Made by a program: the position numbers and the translations under genes. A stretch of DNA of 40,458 nt, taken from the NCBI GenBank assembly GCA_949285935.1, contig CASEAH010000085.1, positions 1 through 40,458 of the forward strand, in the 5' to 3' direction. Positions 4,873 through 15,223 of this stretch are shown piece after piece (position 1 is the stretch's first letter; every line of letters starts with the position of its first letter). Source of the stretch: an uncultured Oscillospiraceae bacterium. GTDB taxonomy: Bacteria; Bacillota; Clostridia; Oscillospirales; Ruminococcaceae. Below the pieces are notes generated by a model, which was not told where the DNA came from, searched no databases, and was given only the letters and a program-made list of their open reading frames with translations.

Positions 4873-6126
4873 ATGGAAAATCAGTTTTTCGTGGACTCAG
4901 AATATCTCAGTCCCGCTGCCCTGGAGAAAAAGCACCGGCTGGAGACAGATCCTGCCAGCCGCACGGACCATATGGCCTATCTGCCCGGTATGGAGCGTAT
5001 CCAGTCCGACGTCATGGAGAAGGTGCTGTCCCAGATGGATGCCTACGATCCCACCCGTTACACGGCCCGGGAGGTGGAGGCAGCCCTGGATCATGAAACA
5101 TGTTCCATTGAGGATTTCAAGGCCCTGTTGTCTCCGGCAGCCGAGCCCTATCTGGAGCGAATGGCCCAAAAGGCCCGGATGGAGACCCGGAATCACTTCG
5201 GCAACACGGTCTATCTCTTCACGCCCCTGTACATCGCCAATTACTGTGAAAACTACTGCATCTACTGCGGTTTCAACTGCTACAACCACATCCGCCGCAT
5301 GAAGCTGAATGCGGAGCAGATCGAGCATGAAATGCAGATCATCGCCGCCTCCGGAATGGAGGAGATCCTGCTGCTCACCGGCGAGAGCCGGACCATGAGC
5401 GGCGTGGAGTACATCGGCGAAGCCTGCAAGCTGGCCCGGAAGTATTTCCGCATGGTGGGGCTGGAGATCTACCCGGTCAACAGCGACGAGTACCGTTACC
5501 TGCGGGAGTGCGGCGCCGATTACGTCACCGTGTTTCAGGAAACCTACGACGCGGCAAAATATGAAACGCTCCATCTCATGGGCCACAAGCGGGTGTGGCC
5601 CTACCGGTTCGAGGCTCAGGAGCGGGCTCTGATGGGCGGCATGCGCGGCGTGGGCTTTTCCGCTCTGCTGGGGCTGGCCGACTTCCGCAAGGACGCTCTG
5701 GCCACCGCCCTCCATGTCTACTACCTGCAGCGGAAGTACCCCCATGCGGAGATGTCCCTGTCCTGTCCCCGGCTGCGTCCCATCATCAACAACGAAAAAA
5801 TCAACCCCCAGGACGTCCATGAACGGCAGCTGTGCCAGGTGCTGTGCGCCTACCGGATCTTCCTGCCCTTTGCGGGCATCACCGTCTCTTCTCGGGAGAG
5901 TGCGGAGTTCCGCAACGGCATCGTAAAGATTGCTGCCACCAAGGTCTCCGCTGGCGTCTCCACCGGTATCGGTGACCATGAGAGCAAGTACACGGGGCAG
6001 GAAAGCGACGAGGCCCAGGGTGACGAGCAGTTTGAGATCTGCGATGACCGCAGCTTTGACGCCATGTATGAAGATCTTTTTGAGGAAGGGCTTCAGCCGG
6101 TGCTGAATGATTATCTGTATGTCTGA
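4873..6126 (+). CDS. thiH: 2-iminoacetate synthase ThiH (radical SAM tyrosine lyase)
   Basis: The 417-residue enzyme cleaves tyrosine with S-adenosylmethionine to give dehydroglycine and p-cresol, feeding ThiG without oxygen. The radical SAM cluster motif C-x-x-x-C-x-x-C is at Cys125, Cys129 and Cys132, and the BATS-type C-terminal region is present. The presence of ThiH rather than the oxidase ThiO indicates an anaerobe. ATG 4873 follows GGGGAGGG at good spacing, 14 bases after thiG. Its last codons overlap the thiE start. Confidence 0.95.
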   Translation: MENQFFVDSEYLSPAALEKKHRLETDPASRTDHMAYLPGMERIQSDVMEKVLSQMDAYDPTRYTAREVEAALDHETCSIEDFKALLSPAAEPYLERMAQKARMETRNHFGNTVYLFTPLYIANYCENYCIYCGFNCYNHIRRMKLNAEQIEHEMQIIAASGMEEILLLTGESRTMSGVEYIGEACKLARKYFRMVGLEIYPVNSDEYRYLRECGADYVTVFQETYDAAKYETLHLMGHKRVWPYRFEAQERALMGGMRGVGFSALLGLADFRKDALATALHVYYLQRKYPHAEMSLSCPRLRPIINNEKINPQDVHERQLCQVLCAYRIFLPFAGITVSSRESAEFRNGIVKIAATKVSAGVSTGIGDHESKYTGQESDEAQGDEQFEICDDRSFDAMYEDLFEEGLQPVLNDYLYV

Positions 6127-6721
6127 GATCCTGTGTGTCACCAATCGCCGCCTTTGCCGGGAGGATTTTCTCACCCGGATGGAGGCCGTCGCCGCTGCCG
6201 GCCCCGCCGGGGTGATCCTGCGGGAAAAGGACTTGCCTCCCGACGACTATCGCGCTTTGGCGCAGCAAGTTTTAACCATCTGCCGCTTCCACGCCACGCC
6301 CTGCATTCTTCACAGCTTCCCGGACATCGCCCGGGAGCTGGGGGCCGACGGGCTGCATTTGCCGCTGCCGCTGCTGCGCACCCTCTCACCGGCACAGCGC
6401 ACAAAGTTCCCAATGCTGGGGACGTCCTGCCACAGTGTGGAGGACGCTCAGGAGGCAGAGCGGCTGGGATGCACCTATATCACGGCGGGTCATATCTTCG
6501 CCACCGACTGCAAAAAAGGCCTGCCTCCCAGAGGTCTGGCATTTCTGTGGGAAGTGTGCGTCGCCGTGCAGATCCCGGTGTGGGCCATCGGTGGAATTGA
6601 ACCGGGAAATTTCCCATTGGTGATAGCAGCCGGCGCCCAAGGCGGATGTGTGATGAGCGGCTTTATGGCATGCTCCGATCCCAAGGTACTGCTGCAAGAG
6701 TTTCATGCTGCCTCGGCGTGA
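6119..6721 (+). CDS. thiE: Thiamine phosphate synthase (ThiE/TenI family)
   Basis: The protein is about 200 residues, starting M-S-E-I-L-C-V-T-N-R-R-L-C, with a TIM-barrel ThiE/TenI fold. Recognisable parts are the V-I-L-R-E-K-D-L segment that binds the pyrophosphate substrate, G-A-D-G-L-H-L, G-T-S-C-H-S, Y-I-T-A-G-H-I-F-x-T-D-C-K-K-G and A-I-G-G-I. It would join thiazole phosphate to the pyrimidine. The T-D-C-K-K-G segment resembles ThiE and TenI alike, so the isomerase TenI remains possible. ATG 6119 overlaps the thiH stop; ATG 6107 is an alternative start. The hairpin at 6917-6961 is the first clear terminator downstream. Confidence 0.85.
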   Translation: MSEILCVTNRRLCREDFLTRMEAVAAAGPAGVILREKDLPPDDYRALAQQVLTICRFHATPCILHSFPDIARELGADGLHLPLPLLRTLSPAQRTKFPMLGTSCHSVEDAQEAERLGCTYITAGHIFATDCKKGLPPRGLAFLWEVCVAVQIPVWAIGGIEPGNFPLVIAAGAQGGCVMSGFMACSDPKVLLQEFHAASA

Positions 6722-8740: not shown

Positions 8741-8769
8741 TTGTCACTATTTGTCGTTTGATGTAAAAT
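8741..8769 (+). promoter_or_regulatory. Promoter of the RyR-domain / TIR-NLR pair
   Basis: TTGTCA (8741-8746) and TAAAAT (8764-8769) are 17 bases apart. Transcription would start about 40 bases before the GTG start at 8817. No operator palindrome was noted. Confidence 0.6.
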
Positions 8770-8816
8770 GAAAAAAGAGAGCGGGCTGGGTAATACAGGG
8801 GAAAGGGTTGTGTCCT

Positions 8817-10250
8817 GTGAAGAAATTGGCTGTTGTGGGCAAGAAACTGATTTTCTTTTTTCCGCTGGTTTGCGGTATGATTGGCCTTGTGGGACAAGCA
8901 GGAGGGGACTTCCTGGATGCCCTCTACCAGTGTGTGGGGATGTATCTGATGAACTATGGTGATACACCGCCCAACCTGTGGGTGGAGGTCGCCCGCTGGA
9001 CTGCTCCGCTGATCACCGCCAGCGGCGTCATACTGGCCATCGGCGCCCTTCGTCGGATGTTGGGCAACTGGCTGCGGTATCTCCGGGAGGACAGTGTGGC
9101 TGTATACGGCACAGGGCCAGTCAAATCTGTTCTGCTGGAGCAGTTGGACTGTCGCGGTGTGGACGGGGGCCAGGATCTGGTTCCCGCCCACCGGTACATT
9201 CTCGCAGACTCAGAAGAGAAAAATTTTGCTTTCTATCAGGAGCACCGGCAGGAACTGACCGGACGGAAGGTGTATCTGCAGTGCCGGTCCCTGTCCGCCC
9301 AGTCCAACACTGACCCGATGCTGCGGTTTTTCTGCCCGGAGGAGAACGCCGCCCGGCTGTTCTGGCGGCAGCGGGGAATGTACGAACTGTCCCGCCGGCA
9401 GAAATACCGCCTGCAGATCGTCTTTCTTGGGTTCGGCAAACTGGGGGAGGAACTCTTGCTGCGGGGATTGCAAAATAACCTGTTCTCGCCGGACCAGCTG
9501 ATCGAGTACCATATCTTCGGTACAGCCGACCGTTTTGCAGCGGTTCATCGGGGTATTGCACAGATTGGCGATGCTGTCATTTTCCATCAAGAGTCCTGGT
9601 ATACCCAGCTTCCGCTGCTGGAGCAAGTCCATCTGCTGCTGGTTCTGGAACAGGAAGAACAGGCGGAGCTGCTGGAGGATCTGCTGCTGGCCACCACACG
9701 GCCGGAAATTGATGTCTTTGCCGGCAGCGCTCTGAGGAACAGCCCCTTGGCAAAGCAGCAGCGGCTGCGGCTGTTTGCCTGGGAACAGGCGGCCCTTGAC
9801 CTGAAGATCGTCATGGACGACCTTCTTCTCACCAGGGCCAAAGCCATCAATCTTCGTTACAGCCATCTGTACAACGGCCTGGAAGAAACAGCGGAAAATC
9901 GGGAGGCCCAGTGGGCAAAACTGGATGCCTTCACCCGGGAGTCCAACATCAGTGCCGCGGACTACCACATGGTACGGCTGGACATGCTGGCATCCATGGG
10001 GCTGCCGGCATCGGCAGAACAACTGCCCACGGAAGCCTTGGAATTACTGGCGGAACTGGAACACATCCGCTGGTGCCGGTATCACAGTCTGAACAACTGG
10101 ACTTTCGGTCGGCCGGAGAACGGGAAACGCAAGGATCCTGTCCGGCGGATTCACACGGATCTGCTGCCTTATGGGGATCTTACCGAAGCGGAACGTGAAA
10201 AGGACCGGGAGAATATCCGCATTCTCCTGTCGGTAAAGGAAAGCGATTGA
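8817..10250 (+). CDS. Membrane-anchored double-Rossmann (TrkA-N-like) protein with C-terminal RyR domain
   Basis: GTG 8817 follows GGGGAAAGGG at good spacing and gives 477 residues; TTG 8808 is too close to that site. Residues 9-28 and about 58-80 are membrane helices flanking a segment with N-Y-G-D (46-49), which sits where a potassium-channel filter would be but is degenerate. Two Rossmann-type stretches follow: V-A-V-Y-G-T-G (94-100) and I-V-F-L-G-F-G-K-L-G (201-210), as in TrkA-N/RCK nucleotide-binding domains. Residues 412-466 match the ryanodine-receptor (RyR) repeat: E-H-I-R-W, N-N-W-T-F-G, L-L-P-Y-x-x-L and E-x-E-K-D-R. It would sit at the membrane with a cytosolic nucleotide sensor. 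The TIR-NLR gene follows after 102 bases. Function is not established; I infer a signalling or effector role with that neighbour. Confidence 0.7.
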   Translation: MKKLAVVGKKLIFFFPLVCGMIGLVGQAGGDFLDALYQCVGMYLMNYGDTPPNLWVEVARWTAPLITASGVILAIGALRRMLGNWLRYLREDSVAVYGTGPVKSVLLEQLDCRGVDGGQDLVPAHRYILADSEEKNFAFYQEHRQELTGRKVYLQCRSLSAQSNTDPMLRFFCPEENAARLFWRQRGMYELSRRQKYRLQIVFLGFGKLGEELLLRGLQNNLFSPDQLIEYHIFGTADRFAAVHRGIAQIGDAVIFHQESWYTQLPLLEQVHLLLVLEQEEQAELLEDLLLATTRPEIDVFAGSALRNSPLAKQQRLRLFAWEQAALDLKIVMDDLLLTRAKAINLRYSHLYNGLEETAENREAQWAKLDAFTRESNISAADYHMVRLDMLASMGLPASAEQLPTEALELLAELEHIRWCRYHSLNNWTFGRPENGKRKDPVRRIHTDLLPYGDLTEAEREKDRENIRILLSVKESD

Positions 10251-10352
10251 CCAATATGGGGACTTTGTCCGGAACTTCCGGCAGAGGACAGCGCATTTTG
10301 GAAAAACAGCGGCAAAGGGAAGTCTGATTACGGTTTTGTTGGGAGGCGTCCT

Positions 10353-12671
10353 ATGAAACATATCGTCTTTATCAGTTATCACCACGACTCCTCTGTGGAG
10401 CTGGTGGAACACATTGTCCGGGCACTGGAGAATAACGGCATCAAATGCTGGTATGCCCCCCGGGATGTAACATCCAAATATGCCGGAGACATTGTGCGGG
10501 CCATTGAAGAGTGCAAAATTTTCCTGCTCATCATGAACCAGTACTCCTCCCGTTCTGAGCATGTACTCAATGAGATCGACTGCGCCTTCAACCGTCTCCA
10601 TCACAAGGAAAATATCCGCCTCCTTCCGCTGCGCACCGATAAGGAGAACATGTCGGACGATGTAAAATATTATCTGGGACGCATTCACAGCCTGGATGCC
10701 TCCGATCCGCCTGAAGAGGAGCGGATCTCCACCCTGGTTTCCCGCATCGCCTACTGGCTTCAGGAAGAGGAGGACGGCTCTGCTCAGGAAGAAAGCGGCA
10801 TCCCCACGCAGACAGGAGGGATCCGCAGCACCTCCCTGATTTACAACACCAACTTTGTGGGCCGTGAAGCGGAGCTTGAGGAAATGCACCAGCTGCTCCG
10901 GGGAGAGAACAACAAGCTTTTCCTCTTCGGAACCGGCGGAATGGGAAAAAGCGAACTGGCCCGGCAGTATCTGCGCAAATTTCAGGGCGAATATACCACC
11001 ATGGTATGGCTGACCTGCAACACCAATATTCAGGACATGATGATCTCCGATCAGTTCCTTCGCATCCGCGGCCTGGAGAGTGAGAAGCAGGATCTGACCA
11101 CTCCACAGGCAAGAGAAGTCTATTATGAGAAAAAGCTGGACTATCTCAAAGAGCACTGTGACCGAGACACCCTGTTGGTGGTGGATAATCTGGATATCCA
11201 GGATCCCCGGCTCACCCAGCTGCTGGAGGGGAGATATTCCATGATTATCACCTCCCGCATCAGTCGTGAAAAAGACGGGTATCAGGAACTGACGGTCCGT
11301 CCCCTGGACCGGTGGGAGGATCAGCTGGCTCTGTTCCGGAAGTTTTATAAGCGTCCCATAGGGGCACAGGAGGAGCCGGCGCTGTCGGAGGTGTTCCGCC
11401 GCATCGGATTCCATACCTATGGCATCCAGCTGCTGGCCAAGCAGATGCAGGCATCCCATCTTTCCCCTGCCGCCATGCTGGATTATCTCCGCGGCACAGG
11501 CGGAACTGTCCAGCGCCGCTCCCAGATGGTCATGGACCATGTGATGGAGGTTATGCAGCAGATCTTTGATCTGAGCGGCCTTACTTCGGAGAAGATCTCG
11601 GTTCTGAAGAATATGGCCCTTCTCCCGGTGGAGGGGGTAGAGACGGAACTGTTCTTTGATCTGACGCAGCTGGAAGATTTTATCCTGCTGGACGAACTGA
11701 TCGACAGCAGCTTTATCCAGTACAACTCCATCACCGATGTGATCTCCCTCCATCCGCTGATGGCCGATACCATCGTGCGGAAAAATCCCGGTTTTGCACA
11801 GGACTGCCAAGTCTATGTGGACAACCTTGCCCAGCGGCTGAGCCAGTTTACCCACTGCAAATACCAGGAAAAACAGGCGCTGATCTCCCTGGGGGAAAAC
11901 TATTACCGCAAGTGGTGCGACCCCTCCCTGCCCTTCAATGTGAACTTTATGGAACGGCTGGCAGAAGCCTATGCGGAATACTTCATGCGGGACAAAAGCA
12001 TTGCGATTTTTGAAAAGCTGATCACCCTCCATCCGGACCCCATCCGGGAAAGCTGGTATCACTACTACATGGCCAATCAGCGGCGGTGTCTGGAACAGTA
12101 TGACCTGCTTTCCCAGGAAGCCGCCCGGTCTCTGGAGATTATCCAGGCAGTCCCCCAGTCCCCGGAGCGAGACCGGCAGCTATCCCTGTCCTGTTCCATG
12201 ATGGGATGGGCCAAGTACCATGAGAACCGGCTGGAAGAAGCTGAGCATTATTTCCAGCAGGTACTCCAGCTCCGTCTGCAGATCCTCTCGGATGAAGACC
12301 CCCTGATCCCCTGGGCCTACTACAACAGGGCCCAAGTGCTGAAAAAAATGGGACGGATGAAAGAGGCCATCCAGGGATACGAGGAGGCCATCCGCCGGTT
12401 TGAGGCCATTGACGAAATCGGGATCTGCGTACCGGCCTACCTCAGTGCGGCAGAAGCGTACCTGGAACTGGACAATCTGCCGGAGGCAAACCGGGCGCTC
12501 TCCCAAGCTTTTGCCTATGAGTATGCCTATTATGGCGAAGAAAACTGCCGCAACTATTGGCTCTATGAAGTAAAAGCCAAGCTGCTGGACCGTCAGGGCC
12601 AGAAGGAGGAAGCGGAGGAATACCGGCAAATGGCTCAGTCTGCGCACCAGGAATATCTGGAAGGGAAATAA
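10353..12671 (+). CDS. TIR - NB-ARC-like NTPase - TPR protein (bacterial NLR-like immune receptor)
   Basis: The 772-residue protein starts at ATG 10353 after GGGAGG. Residues 1-135 are a TIR domain: V-F-I-S-Y-H (5-10), C-W-Y-A-P-R-D (32-38), and Glu74 in L-N-E-I-D, at the usual position of the NAD-cleaving glutamate. A STAND NTPase follows with Walker A G-T-G-G-M-G-K-S (193-200), Walker B L-L-V-V-D-N-L-D (274-281), T-S-R (300-302), and L-H-P-L-M (466-470) resembling the MHD motif. The C-terminal third (about 560-770) has tetratricopeptide repeats such as G-W-A-K-Y-H-x-x-R-L-E-E-A-E-x-Y. Such proteins sense phage or stress and then deplete NAD or make a nucleotide signal; the trigger here is unknown. 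The upstream RyR/TrkA-N gene is the likely partner. Confidence 0.85.
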   Translation: MKHIVFISYHHDSSVELVEHIVRALENNGIKCWYAPRDVTSKYAGDIVRAIEECKIFLLIMNQYSSRSEHVLNEIDCAFNRLHHKENIRLLPLRTDKENMSDDVKYYLGRIHSLDASDPPEEERISTLVSRIAYWLQEEEDGSAQEESGIPTQTGGIRSTSLIYNTNFVGREAELEEMHQLLRGENNKLFLFGTGGMGKSELARQYLRKFQGEYTTMVWLTCNTNIQDMMISDQFLRIRGLESEKQDLTTPQAREVYYEKKLDYLKEHCDRDTLLVVDNLDIQDPRLTQLLEGRYSMIITSRISREKDGYQELTVRPLDRWEDQLALFRKFYKRPIGAQEEPALSEVFRRIGFHTYGIQLLAKQMQASHLSPAAMLDYLRGTGGTVQRRSQMVMDHVMEVMQQIFDLSGLTSEKISVLKNMALLPVEGVETELFFDLTQLEDFILLDELIDSSFIQYNSITDVISLHPLMADTIVRKNPGFAQDCQVYVDNLAQRLSQFTHCKYQEKQALISLGENYYRKWCDPSLPFNVNFMERLAEAYAEYFMRDKSIAIFEKLITLHPDPIRESWYHYYMANQRRCLEQYDLLSQEAARSLEIIQAVPQSPERDRQLSLSCSMMGWAKYHENRLEEAEHYFQQVLQLRLQILSDEDPLIPWAYYNRAQVLKKMGRMKEAIQGYEEAIRRFEAIDEIGICVPAYLSAAEAYLELDNLPEANRALSQAFAYEYAYYGEENCRNYWLYEVKAKLLDRQGQKEEAEEYRQMAQSAHQEYLEGK

Positions 12672-12735: not shown

Positions 12736-12799
12736 GGGCTTTTTCAAGCAAAGCCCTACACAGAAAAGGCCGCTGCTGTTTTCAGCAGCGGCCTTGTTT
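12736..12799 (+). terminator. Two consecutive terminator hairpins after the TIR-NLR gene
   Basis: The first pairs GGGCTTT (12736-12742) with AAAGCCC (12750-12756). The second is a 13-bp stem, AAGGCCGCTGCTG (12766-12778) with its complement (12783-12795), followed by GTTTG. The second is the stronger stop. Confidence 0.75.
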
Positions 12800-13295: not shown

Positions 13296-14369
13296 TCATT
13301 TTTCATGGATTACTTTCGCCCTTACAATATTCACAGTACACTTTAATCGTTTTTCGGCTAATTCCGTGTATTGTTTGCTTAAATCAATTCCAATTCCCCT
13401 TCTGCCCAGTTTAACAGCAGCATCAACGGTGCTTCCCGTTCCAGAAAATGGATCGAGCACCACTCCGCCGATTGGGCAGGTGGATAATATGGGAACTCTC
13501 AATAATTCTTCAGGAAAAACCGCGCAGTGTGCATCACGCCTCCAAGAATCTTCAGGAACGATTCTCCAGATGTTAGAAGGCAAGAATCCCCTTTTTTTCA
13601 TTTTGATAAAGTAAAATCCTTTTTCCTCAAGCTCTTTTGCACGGCCACTGATTCTTGTGCTTTCACTGTGATATGCCCTTTGCTCCCCACGGACAGTCAT
13701 GCGAAAATCAACAATTGCGCCTTTTCGCATTTCTTCCAAAGTAGTATTTAACGCATCTATCGCGTTTTGTTTTTCTTCCGGCGAGAGGACTGTTGAATTA
13801 TGGATCTGGGCAAAATACTTCTTTCCTGTTACACCCGTTGCAGACGTAATTTCGCCCTCTTTCTCGTAGGCACATTTTTCAGGAACGATACGCACAGCGT
13901 CTGCATCAAAGTAGTATTTTTGAGTCTTTACAAACTGAAAGACATGTTCATATATATCTCTAAAGCGGTCTTTACAGCTCTGAGTGCCTTTCATTTGATC
14001 CCAAACGATATCACTGCGCAAAATCCAACCTTCATCTTGCATCGATAGTGCAACGCGCCACGGCATACCCATAAGACATTTCCTGTAAAATTTATCTCCG
14101 ATATTAAGCCAAAATGTTCCTGTGGGTTTCAGGATCCGTTTGATCTCTCTGATGATAGACATCAGATTTTCAACATATTCTTCCGGTGTTGCTTCTGAGC
14201 CTATGACGTTGGTCAATTCACCATCATAATCTTCATATATCCGCTGCTGCCAATAAGGCGGTGATGTGATTACGCAGTCAATGCTCTCATCCGGCAACTG
14301 TTTAAGTGCTGTCCCAGAATCTGCAGTGATAAAACAATATTTTTTCTTATTTGCCAATACGTCGTGCAT
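13296..14369 (-). CDS. Type II DNA methyltransferase, beta class (N4-cytosine or N6-adenine)
   Basis: From ATG 14369 the protein has 357 residues. The catalytic motif S-P-P-Y is at 36-39 near the N-terminus, and the S-adenosylmethionine motif D-P-F-S-G-T-G-S lies near the C-terminus, the circular order of beta-class enzymes. S-P-P-Y is most often found in N4-cytosine methyltransferases, but adenine specificity is possible. The region between holds the target-recognition part. The start overlaps the endonuclease stop by one base (GTG at 14372 is an alternative), so the two are co-translated. It protects the host against the neighbouring endonuclease. The gene is clearly lower in GC than flanking chromosome. 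Confidence 0.87.
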
Positions 14370-15223
14370 CACTCTAGTACTCCGTCTTCTCGTCCTTTTT
14401 TTATTGCGTTGTTCAGAAATTGTCTCTCGGTTAAATACAGATCAGAATGGGCTCCTGCCAAAATCTTATTGATACCATTCAGATCCGTGCTGAACCATTT
14501 GGATGCTTCAAGTCTGAAACGGCTCAGTTCATCATCCCATTCCATTTTATATGTCATAAAATGGATGGTATCATTCATGTCTTGCCGTAAATCAGATGTA
14601 TCCACGGCATCCTCCAGATATGCCATGGCAACATCCTGGATAACAAAAACTATTTTCTTGCCCCATGCGTTGACAACTTGCCCCTTTTTATATACCTGCT
14701 GCATCATGGTCTTCATAAACTCATTTGCCCAGTTCAGACCAAAGGTATAACTTTTATCATATTTTCCGCAGTTAAGTAAATCTTTTACATAAGGATAAGG
14801 CGAACCTGTTGTCCCATTTGCCTGAAACTCAACACAGAAAAAATCGGATACCTGTTTGCATTCTGCGTCTGTTTTTACTGCAACAAAATCAACGTTACCG
14901 CTGACCCCCATATTGACTTCTTTGATCCAGTGATAATTCTCCCATTCAGGGAAAAAGCGATCATGTATGGACTTAAACACAATGTCTTCCAAAAAGCGAA
15001 AAGGACAAACGATTACAGGCTCAAACTCTTCGAGAAATGACCCTTTGTAACCGAGAGAACAAATACCAACTTTTATGTGCGGTTCACTTTTTCTGGGCTT
15101 TGTACATTCTCTTCCGAGGAAAGGGCAAAACTGGGTTTGACGTGCATTTATGGCAGCTTGGCAACGATCAGTATATGTATAGCCAAACACTTCAATTGGA
15201 TATCGTCCGATTTGAGGCTTCAT
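14369..15223 (-). CDS. NotI-family type II restriction endonuclease
   Basis: The 284-residue protein begins [15 protein letters not shown]. Cys33, Cys40, Cys55 and Cys73 ([16 protein letters not shown]) form a four-cysteine set like the structural iron site of NotI. A PD-(D/E)xK-type core is suggested by V-D-F-V-A-V (about 111-116) followed by F-C-V-E-F-Q, like the D...E-x-Q arrangement of NotI. The family cuts GC-rich sites; the target here cannot be read from sequence. A GGAG site lies about 11 bases upstream. It sits between the controller and the methyltransferase. Confidence 0.8.

Follow-up and report, generated by a model that had tools for sequence, protein, structure and literature searches.

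What might explain why a bacterial gene for a channel-like membrane protein that ends in a ryanodine receptor-type (RyR) domain lies next to a gene for a TIR-STAND-TPR protein? The pair is found on a contig of an uncultured Oscillospiraceae bacterium (CASEAH010000085.1, assembly GCA_949285935.1), of which positions 1 to 40,458 were analyzed and are called the window here. When relatives of the channel-like protein were collected, the conserved unit proved to be the RyR channel-like protein together with any TIR or TIR-like (DUF4062) protein, in many architectures. Judged from sequence, this suggests a two-gene unit of gut bacteria in which a signal made by the TIR protein would open a channel upon attack.

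Anatomy of the gene pair

Both genes are read from the plus strand. The channel-like RyR protein (8808..10250; 480 amino acids from a TTG codon) is supported by the open reading frame list, Pfam, an AlphaFold2 model and the ratio of nonsynonymous to synonymous substitution rates (dN/dS). GTG at 8817 is a likelier start than TTG at 8808, because of its ribosome-binding site and the aligned second copy described below. The sole Pfam family on this protein is RyR (PF02026, amino acids 409-473), at 30.4 bits against a curated cut-off of 27.4. The AlphaFold2 model (pLDDT 93.7, pTM 0.87) was built from alignment A1, which holds 77 of the 81 rows of the channel alignment, with L020, L031, L035 and L041 omitted. 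It contains a first transmembrane helix (TM1, amino acids 4-31, 8817..8900), a short helix at the place of the K+ channel pore helix (amino acids 35-48, 8910..8951) followed by a degenerate filter region, a long second transmembrane helix (TM2, amino acids 57-91, 8976..9080), two Rossmann folds like those of RCK and TrkA-N domains (amino acids 96-336, 9093..9815), and the helices of a Repeat12-type RyR domain (amino acids 408-478, 10029..10241), which is also seen by Pfam and in alignments. Conservation is high along the membrane part: P19 (80/80 aligned rows) and G23 (75/80) in TM1, Y46 (81/81) in the pore-helix-like helix, and R63 (80/81) in TM2. The initial annotation of this DNA had read two transmembrane helices, two Rossmann-type segments and a C-terminal RyR domain, and this architecture is borne out. 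Its TrkA-N label holds for the modeled fold and for homologue L101, on which Pfam calls TrkA_N at 3.9e-15, but the window protein itself has no Pfam match to TrkA_N at E <= 1.

The second gene (10353..12671) encodes the 772-amino acid TIR-STAND-TPR protein, delimited by the open reading frame list, Pfam, homologue alignment and a model. Its TIR domain (10353..10772; TIR_2, amino acids 5-128, 2.1e-16) includes Glu74, encoded at 10572-10574. The STAND NTPase part (10845..11792, with Walker A at 10929-10955) lies above the Pfam cut-offs for both AAA_16 (34.7/32.6 bits) and NB-ARC (24.5/23.5 bits), and is also placed by alignment and model. The TPR array (11799..12668), called by Pfam, the model and a fold search, is the presumed sensor end. 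Ten aligned homologues all keep Glu74 and show little or no variation at the Walker A residues, which agrees with the earlier description of the TIR glutamate and Walker motifs as intact. The model of this protein is less sure (pLDDT 82.1, pTM 0.50, 10 rows), and its fold search returned a match list filled by TPR matches.

The whole pair occurs a second time in the same genome, on contig C75 (L002/L082). Between the copies, dN/dS is 0.15 for the channel gene (dS 0.47) and 0.11 for the TIR gene (dS 0.45). These low ratios and near-equal dS values indicate that both are real coding genes under purifying selection that have diverged together.

Fold matches of the channel model are CASTOR, KtrA, GsuK and TrkA, although over the whole channel the rmsd (root-mean-square deviation) is large and the best Foldseek E is 7e-3. 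The modeled order of TM1, pore helix and TM2 followed by Rossmann gating domains is that of RCK-gated two-TM channels: a two-TM pore would be shared with GsuK and MthK, and Rossmann gating domains with GsuK, MthK and CASTOR/DMI1. Unlike these channels, the window protein is without a canonical selectivity filter and has an added RyR domain. A K+ channel label was rejected for it on account of the missing filter. Of 16 alignment rows obtained through profile or Pfam searches (two come from the window's own genome), only L094, L095 and L096 have a TVGYGD filter. In L094 and L095 the gene for this RyR-type channel with a canonical filter overlaps the TIR gene, and L095 has a second channel-like gene just upstream, encoding 630 amino acids with an RyR-like end by eye.

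Association with TIR and DUF4062 genes

To what extent is the pairing conserved? Bacterial and archaeal genome contigs were scanned with the channel protein, using neither the TIR gene nor any neighbor gene; a relative was encoded in 101 stretches, from the best of which 79 distinct loci were taken. TIR and DUF4062 genes were called with custom hidden Markov models (HMMs), and one locus with a weak TIR fragment by HMM (L013) was counted as DUF4062 by hand. When 18 TIR partners were re-checked with Pfam, 17 passed the TIR_2 cut-off and L048 failed it (26.5 vs 28). Within 3 kb of the channel gene there is a TIR gene at 50/79 loci and a DUF4062 gene at 5/79 (55/79 in all); the contig end cuts the interval at 6, and 18 have neither. 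Fourteen later loci bring the set to 93, in which L083 and L091 seem to be the same contigs as L050 and L049 and are thus counted twice. Across this larger set TIR genes cluster close to the channel gene, with the near end within 500 bp for 42 TIR genes, at 0.5-1.5 kb for 12, at 1.5-3 kb for 5, at 3-5 kb for 1 and at 5-8 kb for none. The TIR partner may be upstream or downstream of the channel gene, on the same or the opposite strand.

Whole-genome samples allow a comparison with chance, with expectations calculated from rounded genome sizes. Profile searches found the channel in 8/391 genomes of the class and 8/394 of the order, own genome included. Of the 14 channel genes outside the own genome, five lie no more than 5 kb from a TIR domain (0.10 would be expected); for three of the five, in G429, G686 and G722, the neighboring TIR is the only TIR_2 match of the genome. 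The Pfam RyR domain occurs in 10/398 genomes of the phylum, own included, at 14 places; removal of two own places and one under the cut-off leaves 11 genes in 9 genomes and 8 genera, not all independent since two pairs each fall in one cluster. A TIR domain lies within 5 kb of 8/11 (0.07 expected), and two more have a DUF4062 gene, one of them at 4.6 kb, so that G026 is the sole exception. As a control, 91 TrkA_N matches were counted across the same 23 genomes, at times two per protein; just two have a TIR or DUF4062 gene no more than 5 kb away, both in RyR proteins. It is the RyR domain and not TrkA_N that marks the TIR association, because outside RyR proteins 0/89 TrkA_N matches have such a neighbor, against 10/11 RyR genes. 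Chance adjacency is ruled out by the distance profile, the whole-genome expectation and this control. The conserved co-occurrence that the initial annotation had proposed to look for therefore exists, with a partner that is any TIR or DUF4062 protein and not TIR-STAND alone. Its converse, that the two genes might be found apart, is answered differently by the two samples: a TIR or DUF4062 gene is within 3 kb in 55/79 collection loci, but a TIR is near only 5/14 whole-genome channel genes.

The partners are diverse. In the 18 Pfam-checked partners plus the window protein, the combination of TIR, NB-ARC/AAA and TPR occurs in the window and L010, the AAA match of L010 being under the cut-off. Other partners have MORN (L051, L060), WD40-like (L044), or TPR or Sel1 repeats (L003, L007, L092), DUF6273 (L063), a sub-cut-off PDZ match (L035) or RHS-type repeats (L052, L094), and in some TIR is the sole domain found. 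The L006 partner combines DUF4062 with a NACHT-like NTPase, and several partner proteins contain tandem TIRs. The catalytic Glu is present in 50/64 partner TIR rows, and 12 of the 14 others belong to tandem-TIR proteins, in which it is either displaced in the alignment or truly lost. A quick tree built from 90 channel proteins requires at least 23 changes of the TIR label, with at least 17 forced by its starred branches; seven loci were left out, L013 and L050 were relabeled by hand, and three long branches were flagged. Inheritance of the association once, as a block, is not favored, given these forced changes and partners that vary in architecture, side and strand. The channel is thus the constant element, while the TIR gene beside it can be swapped, acquired or dropped. 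Of the sister channel proteins L036 and L037, which have similar surroundings, one has TIR as a neighbor and the other has not. Going by its nearest channel proteins alone, the window would belong to a Gemmiger-like Oscillospiraceae bacterium.

The putative ligand pocket of the RyR domain

What might the RyR domain recognize? Phage RyR proteins bind 2' and 3' cyclic ADP-ribose (2'cADPR and 3'cADPR), and one of them also cuts these signals, as shown in a 2026 preprint (PMC13232231). It gives the ligand residues of RyDEP as H75, W78, H100 and D117, conserved in animal Repeat12, with H75 and D117 as the catalytic pair. Alignment with a Bacteroides RyR structure, together with spacing, places these residues at H419, W422, H449 and D466 of the window protein; both proteins have a spacing of 3 between the first two ligand residues and of 17 between the last two. 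In the 81-row alignment H419, W422 and H449 are found in 80/80 filled rows and D466 in 76/79. The scan used channel peptide patterns including ELEHIRWC, and invariance within that stretch (H419, W422) is biased, while H449 and D466 lie outside it. Among the 16 profile- or Pfam-derived rows the four residues are kept in 16, 15, 14 and 13, respectively. The pocket would suggest a cADPR isomer as ligand, and the two catalytic residues of RyDEP are kept as well, as H419 and D466.

RyDEP (PMC13232231) resembles the window protein in its RyR/Repeat12 domain and the same four ligand residues, but RyDEP is a phage evasion protein, whereas here the domain is part of a cellular membrane protein encoded beside a TIR gene. 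Animal ryanodine receptors share the RyR (Repeat12) domain and differ in pore and size. A link between Repeat12 and cADPR in animals is, in the same preprint, put forward only as a subject for study (PMC13232231).

A proposed mechanism and its alternatives

The explanation we lean towards is a Thoeris-like, two-component abortive-infection system, in which the RyR domain would read a TIR-made signal and the channel would open. The anatomy, intact motifs, conserved neighborhood and conserved pocket residues are observed, and from them we infer every functional step. The TIR-STAND protein would detect a phage or another cue with its TPR end, and ATP-dependent oligomerization of the STAND part would bring the TIR domains together. 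The assembled TIRs would turn NAD+ into a signal of the ADP-ribose type, with 2'cADPR or 3'cADPR as the likeliest candidates, and this signal would bind the membrane protein at its C-terminal RyR domain. Movement of the RCK-like gating domains would then open the TM1-P-TM2 pore, and ion leak through it would stop growth. More tentatively, the module may represent a bacterial immune ion channel gated directly by TIR-made cyclic ADP-ribose through RyR, predating or paralleling the proposed cADPR-RyR control of animals, with one modular receptor-channel family serving many TIR/DUF4062 sensors and derived from RCK K+ channels by loss of the selectivity filter.

Several observations weigh against this explanation. 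A TVGYG-type K+ filter is absent from the window protein, which has MNYGD there, and from most of the family, so that its role as a pore is putative. In PMC13232231, six of eight phage homologues bound the signals and none (0/8) cut them, thus conserved residues do not fix activity. The TIR label changes frequently on the tree and is barely more clustered there than after shuffling (mean 27.5 changes; 17/500 shuffles as low). Neither TIR nor DUF4062 is found within 3 kb at 18/79 loci (in one of these, L033, a TIR lies 3.4 kb away, and another, L050, is a short contig starting inside a gene resembling that of the window TIR-STAND protein) or at 8/14 later loci. Nine of the 14 whole-genome channel genes are without a TIR near, a share of TIR neighbors below the 50/79 of the collection set. 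Four species of one genus (L086-L089) keep the channel at one conserved, housekeeping-like place without TIR, and no channel relative was found in the viral contigs, plasmids or phage records searched. The initial annotation had proposed the membrane protein as the possible reader of a TIR-made nucleotide; the neighborhood, the cADPR-pocket residues and the RCK-channel-like fold favor this, but the unit is wider than an RyR channel plus a TIR-NLR, and the 18 relatives and four species just mentioned have no TIR nearby.

The genomes of the L086-L089 genus do carry TIR genes elsewhere. There is no TIR near L084, L085 and L093 either. Pfam finds TIR genes elsewhere in G026, G181, G223, G384 and G126, and none anywhere in G099 and G500. 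Solo channels may act as receptors for TIRs encoded elsewhere, may be remnants, or may have a different function. The L086-L089 channel gene adjoins a gene for a conserved membrane protein and a YebC-like gene, by eye.

The pocket could also be that of an eraser or sponge, which hydrolyzes or sequesters the TIR product and restrains the TIR, the membrane part being a regulator and not a killer. Conservation of the RyDEP catalytic pair H75 and D117 as H419 and D466 is consistent with this, as is the soluble appearance of other TIR-adjacent RyR proteins, either short and stand-alone (L097, L098) or a 578-amino acid fusion that is HD-like by eye (L102, L103). We regard it as unlikely, however: it would not account for the conserved part of the protein that resembles an RCK channel, and highly conserved phage RyR proteins can bind without cutting (PMC13232231). 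Quite unlikely is a reversal of roles, in which membrane or NAD state would be sensed by the channel-like protein, and the TIR-STAND protein, activated by it, would kill as an NADase. NAD+ depletion is described in PMC12847820 as the killing mode of some bacterial TIRs, and GsuK, a fold match, has structures with ADP and with NAD according to their titles, but it is the sensor-like repeats on the TIR proteins (TPR, MORN, WD40-like) that vary, while the channel is constant.

The solo channels that keep the same chromosomal position within one genus, and the neighbors of solo relatives that look housekeeping by eye, would suit an NAD/ADP-ribose-responsive ion homeostasis module without any role in immunity. 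Such a module is very unlikely in view of the patchy distribution (8/391 and 8/394 genomes, own included), the DNA methylase genes next to each of the two copies in the own genome, the NotI-like endonuclease beside the window copy only, and the PADLOC defense candidate PDC-S26 in a cassette at L054.

If the Thoeris-like mechanism is true, a ligand-gated ion channel joins the effectors of TIR signaling, cellular bacterial RyR domains gain a role, and there is a hint at the origin of phage RyR-domain decoys. Whether RyR Repeat12 reads cADPR-type molecules would also become testable in a small bacterial protein.

Relation to known systems

The pair is reminiscent of Thoeris, in which (types I, II and IV; PMC12847820) a TIR gene shares an operon with the gene of an effector to which the NAD-derived signal of the TIR binds; the type II effector is also transmembrane. 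Here too a TIR gene stands beside the gene of a putative signal-reading effector. Unlike in Thoeris as described there, this effector is a TM1-P-TM2, RCK-like RyR protein and not a SIR2, TM-macro or caspase-like one, and the TIR protein carries STAND and TPR parts. The channel protein has no PADLOC or NCBIfam match and only RyR in Pfam. The pair is not filed under a known Thoeris type, because the effector classes checked (SIR2, TM-macro, caspase-like) do not apply; it may overlap with type VI or with a further type. In the search for known Thoeris proteins with PADLOC, the TIR protein weakly matched SAVED-TIR (2.3e-6) and ThsB (1.1e-4), and its NCBIfam matches are far under the curated cut-offs.

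DUF4062 proteins, the TIR-like NADases of Swarozyc (PMC13174449), replace the TIR gene beside 5/79 channel relatives, and the terms RyR and channel are absent from the main text of that paper. The available text of PMC7159879, PMC7016017 and PMC10022894 contains nothing on an RyR channel-TIR pair. The literature matches listed include no description of such a pair, a 2015 NAR survey of nucleotide-centric conflict systems being outside that scope. This survey may discuss RyR domains.

Genomic context

A promoter-like site, TTGTCA-17-TAAAAT (8741..8769, plus strand), precedes the channel gene and has 10/12 consensus matches. This site of the single promoter proposed earlier is among the two best of a sigma-70-like scan, but it does not rise above chance, because the scan found 5 sites vs 3.2 expected from shuffles. 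Downstream of the operon, an inverted repeat (12766..12795) is terminator-like on both strands, with 13 pairs read on the minus strand and 9 on the plus strand. Beyond it, on the minus strand (13296-15223), are genes for a NotI-like restriction endonuclease and an N4/N6 methylase. After the second copy of the pair there are two methylase-type genes and a gene for a 156-amino acid protein with a weak CARF-nuclease-like match.

A four-gene cassette, at L054 (2695-9314), L055, L056, L057, L064 and L068, encodes an RyR-like protein, TIR, PDDEXK_4 and the channel. Its first protein (about 660-770 amino acids) has a C-terminal RyR-like domain and is HD-like by eye, with no Pfam family in L054 and L006; the PDDEXK_4 protein of L054 is the one that matches PDC-S26. 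The gene context leans towards defense, without proof.

Other neighbors of the channel gene were also seen. At L099 and L101 it is followed by a gene for a protein with a sub-cut-off DUF4231 match, SLOG-like by eye, and the L101 genome has a TIR domain in a 967-amino acid frame at about the place of the DUF4231-like protein. A NUDIX gene lies directly 3' of the channel gene in the TIR-less sister loci L012 (9430-9999, Pfam) and L017 (9413-10051, by eye). One gene cluster is represented within three genes of the channel at eight loci (L014, L018, L060, L061, L066, L067, L071 and L077), its L014 member belonging to the DHH family. Elsewhere in the window, a Radical-SAM/BATS protein (4873-6126), probably ThiH, overlaps a ThiE-like open reading frame (6107-6721, by eye), and the two are likely to serve thiamine synthesis.

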